Origin: an uncultured Bacteroidales bacterium
GTDB lineage: Bacteria > Bacteroidota > Bacteroidia > Bacteroidales > UBA932
DNA: 64,000 nucleotides
NCBI GenBank assembly: GCA_944323785.1
Contig: CALUTU010000007.1
Location: forward strand, 62,001 to 126,000
Reading direction: 5' to 3'
Below the pieces are notes generated by a model, which searched no databases, was not told the DNA's origin, and saw nothing but the letters and a program-made list of their open reading frames with translations. The position numbers and the translations under genes are program-made. This document shows, piece by piece, positions 32,073 to 40,338 of this stretch; positions within the stretch are counted from its first letter, which is position 1; each line of letters opens with the position of its first letter.

Positions 32073-33242
32073 ATGAGATCGAAGTACTACTGGATTGGTA
32101 TGTTCACCCTGCCGTTGTTCGTGGCTCTTATGACGATGTGCGGAGACAGGGATACAGCGCGTATAAGTCTTACAGTAAAAGGTGCTCCCGACAGTACTCA
32201 GGTAGTGGTCTCACGCCTGGCATTGAATCAGATGCAGGTACTGGATACAGTCTGCACCGTCGGGGGGAAGGCGGAGTGCCGTGTGACGGTCAATCCGGGT
32301 TCTCCCGAGTTCATATATCTGACTTTTGGCAGTGACGGCGTGGTCTCCCTGCTTCTGCAGGGCAGGGACAGGGTAAGCGTTGCGGCGGACTGGTCCCGGC
32401 CGTCGGTCGTGTCGATTGATGGTTCCGAGGAGTCGGTGCTTATGCAGGAGGTGAATGACGGCATCCGGACTTTCAATCACAAGTTCGATTCCCTGTTCGC
32501 GGAGATGTCTTCGGCCGAGGCGGAGGGAGATGTAGACAGAAGTTCCGCTCTCAGGCGCGAACTCGGATTGCTGTATGTGAGGCACAAGCAGGATGCCCTG
32601 CAGTATGTGCTGCGGCATAGGGGCTCGATGACGGTAATCCCGGTGCTGTATCAGGTGGCTCCGAACGGACAGTGGATATTCTCTGAAATGACCGACGCTC
32701 TTGTCATGGAGCAGGTGTATGATACTCTGCATACGCTTTATCCTGTCTCGCCGTATCTGGCCGCTCTGGCCGACGAGGTCCAGTCAAGGCGCAATGTCAT
32801 GGATATGGGCAATATTCTTTCGGATGCGGAGGAAGTGGATTTTCCGGAGATAGCCCTGGCCGATGTGAACGGAGAAATGCGGAGTCTGACAGCCCTCAAG
32901 GGCAGGGTGGTCGTGCTGTGTTTTTGGGACCCCTCGGTGATGGAGCAGCGTATCTTCAATGTCGGGCTGAAAGAACTTTATGAGAAGTACAGTGGCCGTG
33001 GCCTGGAGATATACCAGGTGGCCGTGACCCAGGACAAGACTGCGTGGGCCATGCAGGTCAAGGAACAGGAACTGCCGTGGATCAGTGTCTGCGATCCTTC
33101 CGGAGCGTCGTCAGCGGCGGTAGTGATGTACAATGTGTCACAGTTGCCGGCCATGTACGTTATCTCCAGAGACGGAGTGATAACGGCCAGAGACCTGTTT
33201 GAGACTGATAAGCTGGGACAGGAAATCAGCCGTCTGTTATGA
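32073..33242 (+). CDS. Thioredoxin-fold (TlpA/AhpC-like) exported protein without CxxC
   Basis: About 389 residues from ATG 32073 (MRSKYYWIG, start of a signal peptide; an ATG six codons earlier overlaps the HIT gene). After a signal sequence with a cysteine near residue 23 comes a DUF4369-like beta domain, a helical middle and a C-terminal thioredoxin fold (FPEIALADVNGEMRSLTALKG, VVVLCFWDPSVMEQ). Where active TlpA proteins have WCxxC this one reads FWDPSVM, so it cannot act as a thiol oxidoreductase. The role is unknown, perhaps structural. Its end overlaps the convergent tsaB by 6 bp. Confidence 0.75.
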   Translation: MRSKYYWIGMFTLPLFVALMTMCGDRDTARISLTVKGAPDSTQVVVSRLALNQMQVLDTVCTVGGKAECRVTVNPGSPEFIYLTFGSDGVVSLLLQGRDRVSVAADWSRPSVVSIDGSEESVLMQEVNDGIRTFNHKFDSLFAEMSSAEAEGDVDRSSALRRELGLLYVRHKQDALQYVLRHRGSMTVIPVLYQVAPNGQWIFSEMTDALVMEQVYDTLHTLYPVSPYLAALADEVQSRRNVMDMGNILSDAEEVDFPEIALADVNGEMRSLTALKGRVVVLCFWDPSVMEQRIFNVGLKELYEKYSGRGLEIYQVAVTQDKTAWAMQVKEQELPWISVCDPSGASSAAVVMYNVSQLPAMYVISRDGVITARDLFETDKLGQEISRLL

Positions 33243-33965
33243 TCTGTCCGGATGCAGGACGGCATCCAGTTTCCTGGACGGACTGGCTGCGATAAATTCT
33301 TTAAGGTAGAACGGTTCGAAGTAGGCTGCATCTTCGAACCGTTTTTCTGTATATGCCCTGCGGGCCGGTTCCGCCATATATGCGGCATCGGGATGGCTTG
33401 CTGTAAATGTGCACCTGTCCAGGTACTCAGGATTGATGACCTGCCTGTATTTCCCGGCTCCGTCTCCGGTGAATATCAGGTGTCCGTATCCGGCTATCTC
33501 TCCGGCGAATGTATCCGGCTCAAGGATGACTGCTTTTGTGTCGGATATCCTGCGTCCCGATGAGTCGAACAGGGCCGTGTACACCTCCATCCTTCTGGCA
33601 TCAATCATGGGAATAATCAGGGTGTCGGCGGATATGTTCCCGGTACTCAAGGCGCCGCAGGCTATTGCTTCCAGGGTTTCTACCGCGATAAGCGGCAGGC
33701 CTGCTCCGAAGCAAATGCCTTTTGCGGTCGATACGCCTACCCGGAGTCCAGTGTAGGAACCCGGTCCGGAGCTGACGGCTACGGCCGACAGATCTTTGGC
33801 GGAAAGACCGGCCTTTTTCAGGACTTCGTCAATCATCGGAGCGAGTCCTGATGCCTGACTCTTGGGCTCGGATGTGTATCTGGCGGAAATAATCCCTTTC
33901 CCGTCTGTTATGGCTGCGGAACATACGTCCGTGGCCGTCTCTATAAGCAGTATCTTATCGTTCAT
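33237..33965 (-). CDS. tsaB: tRNA threonylcarbamoyladenosine synthesis protein TsaB
   Basis: A 242-residue ASKHA-fold partner of TsaD in making t6A37 on ANN-decoding tRNAs. The opening ILLIETATDVCSAAI and the block SSGPGSYTGLRVGVSTAKG identify TsaB. The ATG at 33965 is used; one immediately before it is equivalent. It overlaps the end of the adaptor gene by 11 bp, an unusual place for a tRNA-modification gene, so it probably depends on the TolC-adaptor transcript. Confidence 0.9.
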   Translation of the reverse strand: MNDKILLIETATDVCSAAITDGKGIISARYTSEPKSQASGLAPMIDEVLKKAGLSAKDLSAVAVSSGPGSYTGLRVGVSTAKGICFGAGLPLIAVETLEAIACGALSTGNISADTLIIPMIDARRMEVYTALFDSSGRRISDTKAVILEPDTFAGEIAGYGHLIFTGDGAGKYRQVINPEYLDRCTFTASHPDAAYMAEPARRAYTEKRFEDAAYFEPFYLKEFIAASPSRKLDAVLHPDRS

Positions 33966-35178
33966 CATCGTTGTGTTTTTCTATATCGGCATTGACTTTC
34001 ATCCCGTCCTCCAGTACTCTGTTCACGGTGCTGTACGGTCCGGTGACGATCCAGGTGGAGTCCGCGTCTTCCAGGCCCCCTGTTATCTGGATGTTCTCTA
34101 TGCTCTGGATGCCCGTGCTCACCTTGACGGAGTTGACGGTGGCCGTGGACGGGTCGTATGTGAATATGCACTCTTCGGAAGTGACGGCCTGCAGGGGTAC
34201 GGTCAGGGCATTGTCCTGTCTGTCAGTCTCTATCTCTACCGATGCGGACATGCCCGGCCTGAACGGGATGGGGTCTTTTTCCAGCAGGTCTGCGTAGGAT
34301 GCCGGCAGCAGCCGGATCCTGACCTCGAAGTTGGTTACGTCCGTAAGGGCGGAGGTGGCTGCCGTAAGGTTTTTCGCCGAATTGGCGATCTGAGTGACCA
34401 CTCCCTTGAACCGTCTGCCCGGGTATGCGTCCACATCGATATCGGCCGTGTCGCCTTTTGTTATGCGTATGATGTCATTCTCGTTGACATCCACGAGCAC
34501 TTCCATCATGTTGAAGTCGGCTATCCGCAGCATCTCGGTTCCGGCCATCTGGGAGGTGCCCACGACCCTTTCTCCTTTCTCTACGCTAAGGCTGGATATG
34601 ATGCCGTCGATAGGGGAGTATATGACGGTCTTGGTCAGGTTCTCCTCGGCCTCGCTCAATGAGGCGGTGGCGCTTTCAATGTTGTACTCGGCGGCCTTCA
34701 GCTGTTCCGCGGCCATTCCGTACTCAGCAGTGCTGGCCTCGAACTCCTGCAGGGAGATGGCCCGTTTCTCATAGAGGTCCCGGTTGCGGTTGTAATTCTG
34801 CTCGGCCTGATCAAAAGCGGCTTTCTGCTGACGGTACTGGGCTTTCGTGGAGTTGAGGGATGCCTCCGCCCTGTCTCTCAAGGATATGTAGACATCCTGC
34901 CGGATCTTGATGATCAGGTCTCCTTTCCGGACTCTGTCGCCCTCGTCCACGTTGAGCTCGATAATCTCTCCTGAGACATCGGGACTTATCTTTACTTCCG
35001 TCACCGGACGTATCTTTCCGTTTGCAGGTATCTTCTCTATGATGGTCTCTCTCGTCGGACGGTTGATGACGACAGGCTCGCCCTTGTCCGTCCTTAGCAG
35101 AGCAAACAGGACGGCGGCCGTCACAGCTGCGGCCATGACGATGAGAGTGTATCTTATGCCTTTTCTTTTCTTTCCCAT
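33955..35178 (-). CDS. Periplasmic adaptor (HlyD/MacA-type membrane fusion protein)
   Basis: A 407-residue adaptor joining an inner-membrane pump to TolC. One N-terminal membrane anchor (about 8-27) is followed by a biotinyl/lipoyl half (KISPDVSGEIIELNVDEGD), a long alpha-helical hairpin (about 90-170), the second lipoyl half (YSPIDGIISSLSVEKGERV) and beta-barrel domains. It begins 2 bp after the TolC gene. No MacB-type permease lies nearby; the closest pump is the C39 ABC transporter at 37017, which would complete a tripartite exporter. Confidence 0.87.
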   Translation of the reverse strand: MGKKRKGIRYTLIVMAAAVTAAVLFALLRTDKGEPVVINRPTRETIIEKIPANGKIRPVTEVKISPDVSGEIIELNVDEGDRVRKGDLIIKIRQDVYISLRDRAEASLNSTKAQYRQQKAAFDQAEQNYNRNRDLYEKRAISLQEFEASTAEYGMAAEQLKAAEYNIESATASLSEAEENLTKTVIYSPIDGIISSLSVEKGERVVGTSQMAGTEMLRIADFNMMEVLVDVNENDIIRITKGDTADIDVDAYPGRRFKGVVTQIANSAKNLTAATSALTDVTNFEVRIRLLPASYADLLEKDPIPFRPGMSASVEIETDRQDNALTVPLQAVTSEECIFTYDPSTATVNSVKVSTGIQSIENIQITGGLEDADSTWIVTGPYSTVNRVLEDGMKVNADIEKHNDDER

Positions 35179-35180
35179 AA

Positions 35181-36515
35181 TTATAGTGACATAGGTATCC
35201 CTTTATAAAAGTCTATGATTTTCAATTGGAATACGAATTGGTACCTGGCCTGCAGGTATTCTGATCTGGCTTTGAACAGGTTGGCCCTGGCTACGGTATA
35301 GTCGGTACCGTTCAGGACACCGGAATTGAACTTCTCCTCCACGTATCTGAAAGACTCCTGCATGGATGCGACATTGGCCTCGGCTGCTTCCATCTGACGG
35401 TAATAGGTCTCGGCTTCAGTGACGGCGGTCTGTATCTCCTTGTAGAGAGTCTGCTCCTTGGTCCTGAGCTCCAGTTCCAGACTCTCTCTGGCCAGCCTGG
35501 CGTTTCTGACGTTGGTCTTGACGCTCCAGTTGTTGAAGATCGGGATGCTCAGGCCGACGGTTATGGACGGATTGATGTTGTCCCGGAACTGCTCGAAGAA
35601 CGGATATACGCTTCCGTCCGGGGCGAAGGTGGAGGAACTGTAGAAGGTCCCGTAGCTGGCGGACAGGGATATCTTCGGATAGAACTGGCCTTTGGCTGAC
35701 TTCAGATCCAGCTCTCCTTTGTCCAGGGCCAGTCTGGCACTCTGTATCACGGGCATGGACAGAGCTCCGGCATAGATCTCTTCGATATTGTCGGCAGTGT
35801 ATCCTTGTATGATGTAATCGATATCCGGCACAGCTATGCGGAAGTCCGGACTGTACTGCAGATCCAGCAGCTGCTGAAGAGCCAGGGTGTTGGTCCTGAC
35901 CTGGCTCTCGGCCGTGACAACCTGCACTCTCTCGGAGGCCAGCTGGGACTCTATGTCCAGCAGGGAAGTGTAGGGCTGACTGCCGGCCTCTACCAGCAGC
36001 CGGGTCCTGTCTCTCTGCTCCTGGAGCGAATGGAAACTCTCTTCCGCAGCGGCAAGTATTTCCCGGGCCAGAAGTATCTGCAGGTAACTCTTGGCGATGG
36101 AGACGGATATCTCGTCCTTGAGCCTCTCGACTTCCTGTATGGATATCTCCAGACTCTTCTGACTGCTTTTAAGACCGTATAGCTTTGACAGACCGTCCAG
36201 CAGGTATATTGAGGCATTTGCCGACGCGCTGGTGCTCTGGGACAGTTTGTTGTGTATGATTTCCAGGTTCTGGAGGTCTACCGAGCGGCCCCAGTTGAGG
36301 TTGTGCCCGAAAGATACATTGAGACTGGGGGCAAAGTCCAGCTTGTCCTGAAGCAGCTGGGCCTCGCTTCGGGAGACCTCGATGCTCTGCTGCTTGATGG
36401 ACAGGTTGTTGCTCCAGGCATATTCAATACACCTTTCCAGAGTCCATGTCTCCTGGGCAAGAGCGGTCTGGCTCAGAACCAGAGCTGAAAGTATTAAGCA
36501 TATCCTGTAGTTCAT
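35181..36515 (-). CDS. TolC-family outer-membrane efflux protein
   Basis: A 444-residue outer-membrane channel from ATG 36515 (MNYRICLILSALVLSQTALA, a signal peptide; ten codons shorter than the longest frame). The mature part shows the duplicated OEP pattern: LERCIEYAWSNNLSIKQQ at the start and two long helical halves, with SYGTFYSSSTF and LSIPIFNNWSVKTNVRNA in the second. It would form the outer-membrane exit duct for the adaptor gene that follows by 2 bp and, by inference, for the peptide exporter upstream. Confidence 0.88.
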   Translation of the reverse strand: MNYRICLILSALVLSQTALAQETWTLERCIEYAWSNNLSIKQQSIEVSRSEAQLLQDKLDFAPSLNVSFGHNLNWGRSVDLQNLEIIHNKLSQSTSASANASIYLLDGLSKLYGLKSSQKSLEISIQEVERLKDEISVSIAKSYLQILLAREILAAAEESFHSLQEQRDRTRLLVEAGSQPYTSLLDIESQLASERVQVVTAESQVRTNTLALQQLLDLQYSPDFRIAVPDIDYIIQGYTADNIEEIYAGALSMPVIQSARLALDKGELDLKSAKGQFYPKISLSASYGTFYSSSTFAPDGSVYPFFEQFRDNINPSITVGLSIPIFNNWSVKTNVRNARLARESLELELRTKEQTLYKEIQTAVTEAETYYRQMEAAEANVASMQESFRYVEEKFNSGVLNGTDYTVARANLFKARSEYLQARYQFVFQLKIIDFYKGIPMSL

Positions 36516-36541: not shown

Positions 36542-36550
36542 GCAAAAATA
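36542..36550 (-). promoter_or_regulatory. -7 promoter element of the tolC-adaptor operon
   Basis: TATTTTTGC on the minus strand, 27 nt before the tolC ATG, placed right after the terminator of the peptide genes. The -33 element is not clear because it overlaps the terminator stem. Confidence 0.45.
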
Positions 36551-36561
36551 ATAAAAATAAA

Positions 36562-36598
36562 GAGGCTGTGGCCGAAATTCGCGCCCGGTCACAGCCTC
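36562..36598 (-). terminator. Terminator after the precursor-peptide genes
   Basis: 13-bp stem GAGGCTGTGGCCG / CGGTCACAGCCTC (one G-U) with an 11-nt loop and a T-rich run on the minus strand, 5 bp after the stop of the second peptide. It separates the exporter-peptide unit from the tolC unit. Confidence 0.75.
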
Positions 36599-36603
36599 AA
36601 TTA

Positions 36604-36774
36604 TCAGAATGCCGAAGCGGTCTGAGGTTTCTTACCGTTTCTGAGCAAGTCATAAAGAGCCCTGAGAGCCGCGCCTACAAGCCGGCCGAGCATACGTGCC
36701 ACATTACCCTCTGAGCTGCCTCCTCCTATTATCGAGCAGGATTCACTTCTTCTAAGTACGATGAACTGTTCCAT
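36604..36774 (-). CDS. Double-glycine-leader precursor peptide 1 (bacteriocin-like)
   Basis: A 56-residue ORF, short enough to be missed by ordinary gene finding. The leader (residues 1-18) fits the C39 peptidase pattern: Leu7, Glu11 and Ile15 at -12, -8 and -4 before Gly17-Gly18. The predicted product of about 38 residues is cationic (six Arg/Lys against two Asp/Glu) and looks like an amphipathic helix (ARMLGRLVGAALRALYDLL) containing the GxxxG motif GRLVG. It starts 8 bp after the stop of precursor 2 and ends just before a strong terminator. The identification as a secreted peptide is well supported by context; antibacterial activity is inferred. Confidence 0.78.
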   Translation of the reverse strand: MEQFIVLRRSESCSIIGGGSSEGNVARMLGRLVGAALRALYDLLRNGKKPQTASAF

Positions 36775-36782
36775 AGCAGCGA

Positions 36783-36971
36783 TCAGTTACCGGTTGAACA
36801 TGCTGCCTCCTTTCCGGTCCACCCCTCGATGAATCCCAACAGGAACTGATCGATGTTGTCGACGAAGAATTTTACGATTTTGCCCCATAGGCCGGCACCC
36901 CCGCGGACGGTGGCGCAAAGGTCAGAATTAACACATTCAAACCCTTCATACCTTTGAATAATTCTTTCCAT
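36783..36971 (-). CDS. Double-glycine-leader precursor peptide 2 (bacteriocin-like)
   Basis: A 62-residue peptide. A 25-residue leader ends in TVRGG (Val at -4, Val at -12). The predicted 37-residue product is hydrophobic with three tryptophan/phenylalanine-rich stretches (GLWGKIVKFFVD, QFLLGFIEGWTG) and carries a GxxxG motif GFIEG. Its net charge is about -1. Together with the cationic peptide 1 it has the look of a two-peptide (class IIb) bacteriocin, where GxxxG motifs let the helices pack in the target membrane. It follows the C39 exporter gene by 45 bp. Confidence 0.8.
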   Translation of the reverse strand: MERIIQRYEGFECVNSDLCATVRGGAGLWGKIVKFFVDNIDQFLLGFIEGWTGKEAACSTGN

Positions 36972-36992
36972 GATGCTAGATTTTAATGTTGT

Positions 36993-37016
36993 GCCGCAGA
37001 TAAAAGGCGCTGCGGC
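36993..37016 (-). promoter_or_regulatory. Intercistronic hairpin between exporter and peptide genes
   Basis: GCCGCAG/CTGCGGC, a perfect 7-bp stem with a 10-nt loop immediately after the exporter stop codon. No T run follows on the minus strand, so it looks like an mRNA-processing or stability element rather than a terminator. Confidence 0.4.
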
Positions 37017-39113
37017 TTACGCCTGTGAACGCGCGTTCTTATGTGATAGATCTATTATGTTGTCGGCAATGTCCAGTGCCTGCTCCTCGTGGGATATGAG
37101 CACTGTCGTGATATTGTGCTCTTTAAGAAGACAGATAGTGTCAGTCAGCCTCTTGCGGCTCTCCTGGTCCAGAAATGTGGCCGCCTCGTCCAGAATCAGC
37201 ACTTTGGGCTGGCGGTACAGGGCTCTGGCCAGGGCAATCTTCTGCCTTTCTCCCCCGGACAGTCTGCATCCGTGCTCTCCGGTATGCGCCATTATACCGC
37301 CCGGCAGGCTCTCTATCGTGCGGGCCAGACCGGCCATGGCGCATACTGCAGTGACGGAACGCATGTCGTAGTCCCTGTCTCCCATTACTATGTTCTCCAG
37401 TATGCTTCCGTCGGATATTTCCGGCTTCTGCGGGACTATCGAGATATATTTCCGCCAGGTGTCCAGCGGGATGGTCTGTATGTCCACTCCGCCGGCGGTG
37501 ATGCTTCCGCTCTGGGGCGCATAGCCCCGCATCAGCAGTGCCGCGACGGTGCTCTTGCCGCTGCCGTTGGCTCCGAGTATGAGGTTGGTCTTTCCGGGCA
37601 GGATCCTGAACGAGAGTCCGTCCAGCAGCTGCTCTCTTCCGGGGAATGAGAAGCAGATGTCTCTGGCCTCGATGATGTCGTCCTGTGCCGGCTGGAACCG
37701 TACTGTTCCTGTGGGTTCTTCCCCTTCCAGGTCCAGGATGTCGAATATCCTCTCCGCTGATATCCTGGCTTCGGCAATCTCACGGCTGCTCTCGATGAGC
37801 AGGACTACGGGAGAGCTGAAGACGGTGGTCATGGATATGAAGGATACCAGTTCTCCTACGGTCAGCTCGGAGTTCAGTACGAAAAACGCTCCCGCGAGCA
37901 GGGTTGTAAGATATACTGCCCGGCTGACAGTGTCGGAGACGGAGGCGACGGCCGATGCCAGCACTCCTCCACCGTACAGCGCGGATGCCGTCCTGAAGTA
38001 CTGTGTCTCTATCTTTCTTACGGCCTCTTTCTCGGAGTTGAAATATTTTACGTCCCTGACTGCGGAGAGCTGCTCTATGCTGGTCTGCTCGAACCTGGCG
38101 TTCTCCTCTATGATCCGCCGGTTGACCTTTCTGTTGAGCCTGTCCGAGACTATGTACAGCAGGATGAACAGCGGTATGAAGCTCAGGACGATCAGTGTGA
38201 GTTTCCAGTAGAAGGTCATGAGCACGGCGGTGGCTATGGTCAGGGTGATGACGCTTATCGTCATCAGCAGCAGTCTCTCGGTGATGAACGACCGTATGCG
38301 GTAGGCGTCTGATACTCTGGAGTTGAGCTCTCCGCTGCTCATGGAGTTGAAGAACGACAGCGGCAGCGAGAACACCTTGCGGAAATATTCCGTGATGAGG
38401 CGGCAGTCTATCTTGATGCTTGTACGTACCAGCAGGACAGACCTTACGTAGGATATGTACCAGCACAGCAGGGCAAGGCATATCATGACGGCTCCTGCGG
38501 TCAGCAGTCCGTTGCGGTTACCTGCCGGTATGACCGAGTCGATGATCCTCTGCAGGAATACGGATATGCTCAGGGTGGCGGCTATGTAGGCGGCCGAGCC
38601 GGCCAGTACCAGTGCCAGCTCCTTCCTGTAGAATGAGAGAATGTCCTTGAACCGGCCCAGGATGTCGGTCCTCATGTCCCCCTTTTTGAACATCGGCGAA
38701 GGGGTGACGGCGATGATGTAGCCGCTCCATTCTTCTTCCAGTTCTTTCAGACTGGTCCTGTGCATCCTTCCGTCCTCTGGGTCCATGATCCGGGCATGGT
38801 CCTTGTCCATCCCGTAGAGGACCACGAAGTGCAGCCATCCGCTTTTCTTCTCCAGATGCAGTATGACTGGCCTCTCCACATTACGGAGACTGTCCATGTC
38901 CTTGTCCTTCGCCTTCAGTCCGGCCGCTTCAAGTCCCAGCTTGCCGCAGGCATCGATGACGCCCTGCATGGTGGTGCCGTCCGCGTTTGTCCCGCAGGCC
39001 TCCCGTATCCTTATAAGGGGCAGTCTGAGTCCGTAATGGGCGCATACTGACGCGACACATGCGGCGGCGCAGTCATTCCGGTCCTGTTGTCTGATTCTGA
39101 TCTCCTTCTCCAT
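37017..39113 (-). CDS. Peptidase-containing ABC transporter (C39 peptidase, PCAT)
   Basis: A 698-residue bifunctional exporter that cuts double-glycine leaders and pumps the peptide out. The N-terminal C39 protease has predicted oxyanion Gln9, nucleophile Cys15 (RNDCAAAC), His95 (WLHFVVLYG) and Asp111 (MDPEDG), so all catalytic residues are present. Residues about 155-430 form the six-span membrane domain. The C-terminal ATPase has Walker A GANGSGKST, signature LSGGERQKIALARAL, Walker B LILDEAATFLD and the switch His in ISHEEQ. It is followed by two small double-glycine peptides and, after a terminator, by TolC and adaptor genes. Confidence 0.93.
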   Translation of the reverse strand: MEKEIRIRQQDRNDCAAACVASVCAHYGLRLPLIRIREACGTNADGTTMQGVIDACGKLGLEAAGLKAKDKDMDSLRNVERPVILHLEKKSGWLHFVVLYGMDKDHARIMDPEDGRMHRTSLKELEEEWSGYIIAVTPSPMFKKGDMRTDILGRFKDILSFYRKELALVLAGSAAYIAATLSISVFLQRIIDSVIPAGNRNGLLTAGAVMICLALLCWYISYVRSVLLVRTSIKIDCRLITEYFRKVFSLPLSFFNSMSSGELNSRVSDAYRIRSFITERLLLMTISVITLTIATAVLMTFYWKLTLIVLSFIPLFILLYIVSDRLNRKVNRRIIEENARFEQTSIEQLSAVRDVKYFNSEKEAVRKIETQYFRTASALYGGGVLASAVASVSDTVSRAVYLTTLLAGAFFVLNSELTVGELVSFISMTTVFSSPVVLLIESSREIAEARISAERIFDILDLEGEEPTGTVRFQPAQDDIIEARDICFSFPGREQLLDGLSFRILPGKTNLILGANGSGKSTVAALLMRGYAPQSGSITAGGVDIQTIPLDTWRKYISIVPQKPEISDGSILENIVMGDRDYDMRSVTAVCAMAGLARTIESLPGGIMAHTGEHGCRLSGGERQKIALARALYRQPKVLILDEAATFLDQESRKRLTDTICLLKEHNITTVLISHEEQALDIADNIIDLSHKNARSQA

Positions 39114-39140
39114 ATCCCGCTCCTCCAGAATGTGTCGTGA

Positions 39141-39290
39141 TTATATAAAAGGAGTGAACGGCAGTGCGGACAGCAGAAACGCCGCAGCCGCAGCAATCTT
39201 GTACCTGATGATTTTCCTGGATGCCATCGGCGGCAGTACGGATTCTGCCAGCCGGCCTGTAATCTCCCTCAAACTCTTCTCTTCTTCCAT
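39141..39290 (-). CDS. 49-residue membrane peptide at the head of the exporter unit
   Basis: A small protein counted from ATG 39290 (MEEEKSLREITGRL); the frame extends 14 codons further but this start gives an ordinary soluble N-terminus. A polar, charged first half is followed by a basic RKIIRYK stretch and one hydrophobic span (IAAAAAFLLSALPF). It ends 27 bp before the exporter gene. Size, topology and position fit an immunity protein or an accessory factor of a bacteriocin operon, but there is no sequence signature; the function is inferred from context only. Confidence 0.5.
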   Translation of the reverse strand: MEEEKSLREITGRLAESVLPPMASRKIIRYKIAAAAAFLLSALPFTPFI

Positions 39291-39390: not shown

Positions 39391-39885
39391 CTAGATTTTG
39401 AACAGTTCCTTGATATAGGGGAATACGGAGTCGGTGATGGAGGTTATGATCTGTACGCCTTTGGAGCCCTCCAGGGCCTCTTTGGGAACGAGAGTGAACC
39501 AGGTGTCATTGACGTATTCTATCAATGACAGCAGGACTCCGATGAGGAGCACGGTAGTGGCTATGGACAGCACCATGCCCAGAATCCTGTTGACCCATCC
39601 CAGTGTGGCGAGCTGAATGATCTTCTCGAGCAGTTTGCCCAGCAGGTGCATGCACAGGCATGTGGCGATGATGATGAGGACGAAAGCAATGATCTTGACG
39701 ATGTTCTCGGAGGCATTGATCCACTGGCCGAGCCAGCCGGCGAGCAGGGCCGAGAACCTGCCTGCCAGAATGATTCCGATAAAAAGTCCCGCGATTCCGC
39801 CTGCCTGACGGATCAGTCCGTCCTTAAGGCCCTTTATGACTGCCAGTAAAAGCAGTACCAGAATGATGATGTCTATAACTGTCAT
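39391..39885 (-). CDS. cvpA: CvpA family membrane protein
   Basis: A 164-residue protein with about four membrane spans, beginning MTVIDIIILVLLLLAVIKG and containing GLKDGLIRQAGGIAGLFIG, the hallmark of the CvpA/colicin V production family. Despite the name, most members have a general envelope role. The ATG at 39885 is chosen; one three codons upstream overlaps a TAACTTTG promoter element (39899-39892), which would make the transcript almost leaderless. It lies just upstream of the exporter unit on the same strand but 100 bp away. Confidence 0.88.
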   Translation of the reverse strand: MTVIDIIILVLLLLAVIKGLKDGLIRQAGGIAGLFIGIILAGRFSALLAGWLGQWINASENIVKIIAFVLIIIATCLCMHLLGKLLEKIIQLATLGWVNRILGMVLSIATTVLLIGVLLSLIEYVNDTWFTLVPKEALEGSKGVQIITSITDSVFPYIKELFKI

Positions 39886-39972
39886 AATGGACAAAGTTAG
39901 TAATATTTTCTTTTGTCATGGGCATAATGATGATAAGATTGAGATTTTTCTTGCAGATTTATGGTTTTTACC

Positions 39973-40008: not shown

Positions 40009-40338
40009 ATGAGAAAAGGTATAATCTGTATTCTCGCCGCAGTGATGGGCATACTGCCGTTTCTGACAAGCTGCGAGGAGGAAAGTAAAGTTGAGCATCC
40101 CGGACTCTGGCTTTCTGCGGACAAGACCACTATATCCGCTGACGGAGAGGATATGGTCACATTCACAGTTACACTTGATGATGTGGACGTGACATCACAA
40201 TGTTCGTTCTGCTCCCAGGAAAGTTGCTATGTCAGCAATACATTCAGTACGACAACAGCCGGCGAGTATGTGTTCCATGCCACTTATCTGGAGACAAATG
40301 AGAACAGCGCCAATGAGGTGACGATAACTGCCCAGTAA
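40009..40338 (+). CDS. Small lipoprotein consisting of one Ig-like domain
   Basis: A 109-residue protein: lipoprotein signal with lipobox FLTSC (Cys about 22), then one domain with the pattern LSADKTTISADGEDMVTFTV ... DVTSQCSF ... AGEYVFHATY. This pattern is usually seen as an N-terminal Ig-like domain in front of larger Bacteroidales surface proteins such as Omp28-like proteins; here it stands alone. Two cysteines (CSFCSQESC) are unusual within it. The function is unknown. It is a monocistronic gene with its own promoter and terminator. Confidence 0.72.
   Translation: MRKGIICILAAVMGILPFLTSCEEESKVEHPGLWLSADKTTISADGEDMVTFTVTLDDVDVTSQCSFCSQESCYVSNTFSTTTAGEYVFHATYLETNENSANEVTITAQ

Follow-up and report, generated by a model that had tools for sequence, protein, structure and literature searches.

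A locus on the minus strand of a 64,000-nucleotide stretch of DNA from an uncultured Bacteroidales bacterium (contig CALUTU010000007.1; the whole stretch is hereafter called the window) probably encodes a chromosomal, type-I-secreted, two-peptide membrane-permeabilising bacteriocin module which, by analogy with established systems, would be a Bacteroidales analogue of the class IIb bacteriocins. In the host draft genome (1.97 Mb, 36 contigs), its genes are arranged in the order cvpA, X, C39/ABC exporter, pepA, pepB, tolC, adaptor and tsaB. This reading is built on directly observed features, namely the gene order, the conservation of the genes, the leader pattern of PepB, the constraint on the GxxxG motifs, the pairing of the two peptides, their restriction to one bacterial family and one case of block exchange. 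Genomes, loci and genera are labelled below by G-, L- and g-numbers, respectively.

The peptide pair and its conservation

37017 to 39113, minus strand: C39 peptidase/ABC exporter, 698 amino acids (aa), identified by Pfam and by alignment to PCAT1/ComA, with Walker A and signature motifs in the translation
36783 to 36971, minus strand: pepA, precursor of 62 aa (leader 36897 to 36971, mature part 36786 to 36896)
36822 to 36836, minus strand: GxxxG motif of PepA, GFIEG, residues 46 to 50
36604 to 36774, minus strand: pepB, precursor of 56 aa (leader 36721 to 36774, mature part 36607 to 36720)
36673 to 36687, minus strand: GxxxG motif of PepB, GRLVG, residues 30 to 34

The exporter carries the domains Peptidase_C39 (8e-30), ABC_membrane (4e-44) and ABC_tran (4e-27) of Pfam, and its residues 1 to 171 align to the PCAT1 and ComA chains with E-values of 3e-25 to 2e-20. 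The alignment places a Cys, a His and an Asp of the C39 domain in common with PCAT1, which we take to be the catalytic residues, in agreement with the original prediction that all of them are present. Two tiny open reading frames (ORFs) with double-glycine leaders follow the exporter on the same, minus strand, as had also been predicted. The interval proposed for the locus, 36604 to 39290, does hold the exporter and the pair, and additionally spans a third small gene, X, which had not been mentioned.

PepA consists of a leader ending in CATVRGG and a mature part of 37 residues with one GxxxG (GFIEG), one cysteine and a charge of -1. PepB has a leader ending in SCSIIGG and a cysteine-free mature part of 38 residues with GRLVG and a charge of +4; a second GxxxG (GSSEG) would stand at its mature N-terminus if the cut falls after the first double glycine. 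Thus, the predicted length of 37-38 residues stands, and the single GxxxG stands for PepA, with PepB possibly carrying two, depending on the cut. The maximal helical hydrophobic moment over 18 residues was 0.73 for PepB, a value reached by 0.1% of 2000 shuffles, and 0.53 for PepA (0.6% of shuffles); both mature peptides are amphipathic. The proposed contrast of a cationic and an acidic partner applies to the window and is not a rule across the family, in which charges have a median of 0 for PepA (range -5 to +5) and +2 for PepB (range -4 to +6).

Searching 148 genomes for the exporter gave 63 matches with E <= 1e-100, which fall in 61 of them. By their neighbours, 47 of these were assigned to the cvpA/tsaB module, a manual sorting that was not blind to the peptides, and 16 were excluded from the counts as belonging to other C39 systems (L042, L043, L044, L046, L047, L050, L051, L055, L056, L058, L059, L063, L065, L066, L067 and L069). 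One module locus, L070, ends upstream of the peptides, and the pair lies behind the exporter in all 46 that cover the downstream sequence. Strong matches to the PepA (E <= 1.1e-8) and PepB (E <= 5.5e-11) profiles occurred in the same 47 of 148 genomes, always adjacent, and neither peptide was found alone at that strength in the other 101. The profiles themselves were built from 46 of these 47 genomes, which leaves as independent evidence the pair of G001 and the absence of unpaired strong matches from the remaining 101. PepA also adjoins PepB in 40/40 further loci and species, a second set picked from family-wide PepB matches plus G001. Iterated profile hidden Markov models (HMMs) mixed the two peptides, which were therefore assigned by gene order. 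Across 46/46 and 40/40 loci, the pair adjoined a C39 exporter, the co-occurrence that the original prediction had put forward for checking.

Besides the start methionine, the only invariant or nearly invariant positions in both peptides are the double glycine and one GxxxG. Among 43 PepA sequences (19-81% identity to that of the window), the second leader glycine and both GxxxG glycines are invariant, and the methionine and first leader glycine are kept in at least 90%. Among 43 PepB sequences (15-82% identity), the methionine, the second leader glycine and the second GxxxG glycine are invariant, with the first leader glycine and first GxxxG glycine at 90% or above; L054 was left out of this alignment (A2). 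In the mature parts of 44 non-identical pairs, a strict GxxxG was present in 44/44 PepA (shuffle mean 13.7, maximum 26) and 40/44 PepB (shuffle mean 11.9, maximum 21), and in a second set of 39 it was present in 35 and 36, respectively (shuffle means 12.7 and 9.6). As the latter sequences were retrieved with the PepB profile, their figure for PepB is not independent. The exceptions are GxxxA or AxxxG, with GxxxA in PepA of 4/39 of the second set. In the counts of the first set and in the charge figures, an incorrect double glycine was taken as the cleavage point for PepA of L082. The invariant columns are better evidence than the shuffle counts because the shuffles, like those used for terminators below, keep composition and ignore kinship. 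Additionally, PepB leaders are hydrophobic at positions -4, -12 and -15 in 98-99% of 86 loci. Homologues therefore keep the double glycine and a GxxxG or GxxxG-like motif, as was expected of a genuine pair.

The coding sequences are under constraint. In eight comparisons with the window, the ratio of non-synonymous to synonymous substitution (dN/dS) of pepA, pepB and X was at most 0.5 wherever it could be computed: pepA stayed at or below that value where variable, pepB ranged from 0.04 to 0.21 where computable, and X showed 0.16-0.38 in five comparisons and no non-synonymous change in three close ones. A different pattern was observed between the window and G018, in which neighbouring genes have a synonymous divergence of 0.05-0.13, but 18-56% of bases differ per 50-nucleotide step from about 36,860 to 36,425. 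This block spans the second part of mature pepA, pepB, the terminator and the tolC start, while the pepA leader shows no difference; against G015, a single mismatch was found over the same stretch. We read the G018 block, a single case, as the replacement of one peptide allele by another.

Export genes and candidate immunity proteins

39141 to 39290, minus strand: X, 49 aa, with a single membrane helix predicted at the C-terminus; candidate immunity protein
36562 to 36598, minus strand: terminator-like hairpin with T-rich tail, 3' of pepB (fold z -3.95)
35181 to 36515, minus strand: TolC-like outer-membrane channel (PF02321, 8e-53)
33955 to 35178, minus strand: periplasmic adaptor of RND_mfp/MacA type (TIGR01730, 175.6 bits, cut-off 94.9)
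33237 to 33968, minus strand: tsaB (t6A tRNA modification), module flank (TIGR03725, 172.7 bits, cut-off 69.3)
39391 to 39894, minus strand: cvpA-like gene, upstream module flank (PF02674, 2e-29)

The original prediction described a locus with its own C39 exporter. Such an exporter does adjoin the pair, but the description proved too narrow and should read ABC exporter, adaptor and TolC-like channel. The adaptor exceeds the cut-off of the RND_mfp model and not those of the HlyD or bacteriocin-accessory models, and tsaB overlaps its gene. The TolC-like ORF as listed starts at a TTG at 36545, and the ATG at 36515 is the likelier start. The hairpin between pepB and tolC, which a simple terminator scan missed, would stop transcription behind the peptide genes and let some of it continue into tolC; terminator-like sites were found 3' of pepB in 26/45 loci, versus 8, 6 and 10 in three shuffles. 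A short terminator-like hairpin was also noted at 37005-37024, at the exporter stop codon just before pepA (3 in the region versus 2.4 expected). Between genera, the TolC and adaptor adjoining the pair (L038-L095) fall into more- and less-similar types, with TolC at about 24-79% identity to that of the window.

Two kinds of small membrane protein occupy places at which an immunity protein might be sought. X is found at its place, as judged by place, length and hydrophobicity, in 47/85 loci, one of which (L068) is probably spurious. By genus, it was counted in 18/18 loci of g1, 10/10 of g15, 3/3 of g11, 2/2 of g18, 12/15 of g4 and 2/3 of g2, and in 0/34 of g5, g10, g12, g14 and g21. No match to X was found in the Pfam and NCBIfam libraries. 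In g21, a CPBP/Abi membrane protein of 236-256 codons stands between pepB and tolC in 4/4 loci of the first set and 9/9 more, and the three tested match PF02517 at 1e-14 to 1e-15. An HMM of the four first-set proteins found no further copy in 87 sources, those four and the window included, and none was seen in the remaining 31 loci of the 40-locus second set. X is absent from 12/12 g21 loci that cover its stretch. X is largely consistent within genera and absent from g21, so that it and CPBP seem to stand in for each other. Among known immunity proteins, PlnI, PlnL and SkkI are members of the Abi family, and CbnZ, with 42 residues and one helix, serves a two-peptide bacteriocin (PMC8538875; this and the other papers cited here by PMC number are drawn on as excerpts). 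X resembles CbnZ in size and topology, and both X and CPBP might, speculatively, protect the producer.

Distribution and inheritance

Strong peptide matches are limited to one family. The PepB profile was found in 162 of 398 genomes of the family, distributed over 11 of 25 genera, in 1 of 395 genomes sampled from the phylum (that of the window itself) and in 5 of 393 from the order, which correspond to four of the family and one weak match in a 343-aa ORF. No match was obtained for PepB in a plasmid collection or for PepA in a phage collection. Exporter genes with 98-99% identity occur in three uncultured Bacteroidales records, and a relative at 67% in Candidatus Coprenecus pullistercoris, a genus placed by NCBI in Rikenellaceae.

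When protein distances were compared with those of IleS, the Spearman correlation was 0.62 for the exporter and 0.73 for CvpA, and 0.30 for TsaB, 0.25 for the peptides, 0.12 for TolC and 0.11 for the adaptor. What the figure for the peptides can say is limited, because even that of TsaB is low. The TolC and adaptor distances barely track IleS, and these genes look as if they had been exchanged. In an IleS tree of 40 rows with an unknown root, the four pair-less rows (g9 twice, g22 and g25), the only pair-less loci that contained IleS, need three changes among carriers, which would be consistent with losses. A total of 18 tsaB regions from genomes without the canonical pair were also compared: cvpA and tsaB are adjacent in those of g8, g16, g22 and g24, and those of g7, g13, g17 and g23 hold TolC, adaptor and tsaB without an exporter on the stretch covered. 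At L048, L068 and L085, the module order is kept but cvpA and ileS are found on the far side of tsaB, reversed in orientation, implying that either the flank was inverted or the module moved.

A tentative reading, which we hold to be possible rather than probable, is that a GxxxG-paired two-peptide membrane-active system was present in an ancestor of the family and was kept beside tsaB in many descendants while its peptide alleles recombined and its immunity genes, X or CPBP, were swapped between genera. If so, the module would not be a mobile bacteriocin, and a gut lineage would be using it, close to universally, as a weapon or for telling kin from non-kin.

Comparison with known systems and competing readings

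In anatomy, class IIb bacteriocins such as lactococcin G, plantaricin EF/JK and carnobacteriocin XY are the closest fit. Class IIb is defined by synergy, its peptides being highly active only in combination, a trait that PepA and PepB would be predicted to share. As in these systems, short precursors lie side by side (46/46 and 40/40 loci) with double-glycine leaders, next to a C39 ABC exporter, and both peptides bear a GxxxG-type motif; the candidate immunity proteins would likewise be of the CbnZ kind (X) or of the PlnI/PlnL family (CPBP of g21). In contrast to class IIb, the locus resides in a Gram-negative host, at an old and mostly vertical chromosomal site with a TolC-like channel and an adaptor adjoining; PepA and PepB have no detectable sequence relation to its peptides.

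The Cdz system of Caulobacter crescentus (CdzC/CdzD) proves that a Gram-negative two-protein bacteriocin exists, and shares with the locus the two proteins, type I secretion genes, GxxxG motifs and a small membrane protein, which confers immunity in Cdz and is a candidate for that role here (PMC5380434). However, CdzC (86 residues) and CdzD (84 residues) are contact-acting and are marked by extended GxxxGxxxG zippers and an RTX-like signal at the N-terminus (PMC5380434), whereas the window encodes shorter precursors of 62 (PepA) and 56 aa (PepB) that carry double-glycine leaders and lack GxxxGxxxG, which places them outside this family. Bacteroidetocins are likewise Bacteroidetes peptides with double-glycine leaders and a peptidase-containing ABC exporter, but each is a single 42-residue peptide, class IIa-related and with four cysteines, encoded with a transmembrane protein and a thiol oxidoreductase, and the wider family has two or more cysteines (PMC6671954); the cysteine content of PepA and PepB sets them apart. 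The export of colicin V/microcin V also combines a peptidase-containing ABC exporter, an adaptor and TolC for a peptide bacteriocin (PMC10352776), although for one peptide, instead of an obligate pair with an RND_mfp-type adaptor. No such pair is named in the excerpts of a Bacteroidales mining study (PMC10352776) or of a rumen culture survey (PMC13289728), and no description of one was recognised in the open-licence literature, as far as its excerpts extend.

According to the mechanism that we propose, PepA and PepB would be made as precursors and each would be cut by the C39 domain after the double glycine, after which the ABC transporter would export the peptides and the adaptor and TolC-like channel would carry them over the outer membrane. 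Outside the cell, the amphipathic helices could join at the GxxxG face of each and make the inner membrane of related bacteria permeable. A small membrane protein would guard the producer, namely X in the window and five other genera and CPBP/Abi in another. Cleavage, export and helix pairing are what established families would lead one to expect; killing, pore formation and the target are proposed more speculatively.

Several observations weigh against a bacteriocin. PepA and PepB showed no sequence match to known bacteriocin families in Pfam and NCBIfam or to solved structures. Their AlphaFold2 models show helices, which favours the bacteriocin reading, but have moderate to low confidence: PepB has one helix (residues 21-45; mean predicted local distance difference test, pLDDT, 74.9) and PepA two (residues 28-38 and 40-51; mean pLDDT 62.9). 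The hydrophobic pattern is weaker in the leaders of PepA than in those of PepB (88% at -4, 50% at -12 and 53% at -15). Neither X nor CPBP is present in 26/85 loci (22 in g5, g10, g12 and g14, and 4 in g2 and g4); bacteroidetocin producers, too, seem to be without an evident immunity protein (PMC6671954). L084 keeps the pair without TolC and adaptor between pepB and tsaB, so that its peptides would have to leave through a channel encoded at another site. Finally, bacteriocins are seldom as close to core and as vertically inherited as this module.

That last property would suit a secreted signal, such as a pheromone or a kin-recognition cue, in place of a killer. C39 exporters also process pheromones, the C39 domain found here aligns to that of ComA, a pheromone exporter, and the system is old, mostly vertical and single-copy, with rows that lack the pair falling within the carriers of the IleS tree. 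We nevertheless regard a signal as improbable, since the GxxxG constraint on both peptides and the CPBP protein in the operon of one genus suit membrane-active toxins better, and no sensor kinase or regulator gene appeared in the ORF lists of the window module or of 11 other loci. It is equally unlikely that the peptides are membrane-active without being anti-bacterial weapons, acting as surfactants, in biofilms or on the host in the manner of phenol-soluble modulins (PSMs). Both mature peptides would form amphipathic helices, and PepA gave a match to PSMalpha (PF17063; E 0.088) that stayed below threshold, at 13.3 bits versus a cut-off of 23. PSMs are leaderless, however, in contrast to the double-glycine leaders and C39 exporter found here, and to our knowledge an obligate GxxxG pair is not a PSM trait. 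Although short ORFs with a double glycine are common in single sequences, the notion that these are spurious, with coincidental motifs, can be dismissed in view of the 47/47 co-occurrence, the 40/40 further loci, the purifying selection and the invariant motifs.

The bacteriocin reading thus stays the preferred one, and the counterpart of class IIb that the original prediction had envisaged gains support from the conserved leaders and GxxxG, the co-occurrence of the pair, the CPBP/Abi protein of g21 and the block exchange. If active, the module would add Bacteroidota to the groups with two-peptide bacteriocins and would pose the problem of how such a pair gets through a Gram-negative outer membrane to reach its target. 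With 162/398 family genomes matching the PepB profile, it would also provide an extensive natural collection of cognate peptide pairs and putative immunity proteins. Because the mature parts share hardly any invariant residue outside GxxxG, the idea that two-peptide bacteriocins pair through their helices would become open to direct test. Narrow peptides of this kind could also be selective tools on gut Bacteroidales.

Weaker matches and other C39 systems were also noted. The best matches to solved structures from the PepB and PepA profiles, a polyprenyl synthetase (E 0.018) and a pectate lyase (E 0.043), respectively, were rejected as chance, and weak PepB matches in G092, G090, G058 and G909 (9e-6 to 7e-4), which sit in ORFs of about 340-360 aa, were rejected. 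PADLOC matches at the locus fell only in the ATPase part of the exporter. Outside the core set, the PepA profile weakly matched G070 (8e-8), G146 (8e-6) and G034 (1e-4). G034 and G070 belong to g17, in which cvpA is followed after about 1.4 kb by a C39 gene and then by an ORF of 97-142 aa, and were left out of the pair counts. At L042, L043, L044 and L047, another C39 exporter of the same family is followed by an ORF of 97-142 aa, which by eye looks like a winged-helix/helix-turn-helix regulator, and then by double-glycine-leader peptides; the two at L044 (GFVDG and GASLG) may be a divergent pair. G061 has further C39 exporters with single double-glycine-leader peptides of another kind, located 442-615 (L050) and 449-700 (L051) downstream of the exporter. 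Between cvpA and ileS in the window, a 107-aa ORF on the plus strand (40015-40338) has a lipoprotein-like N-terminus and a sub-threshold match to Big_1 (E 0.0017).

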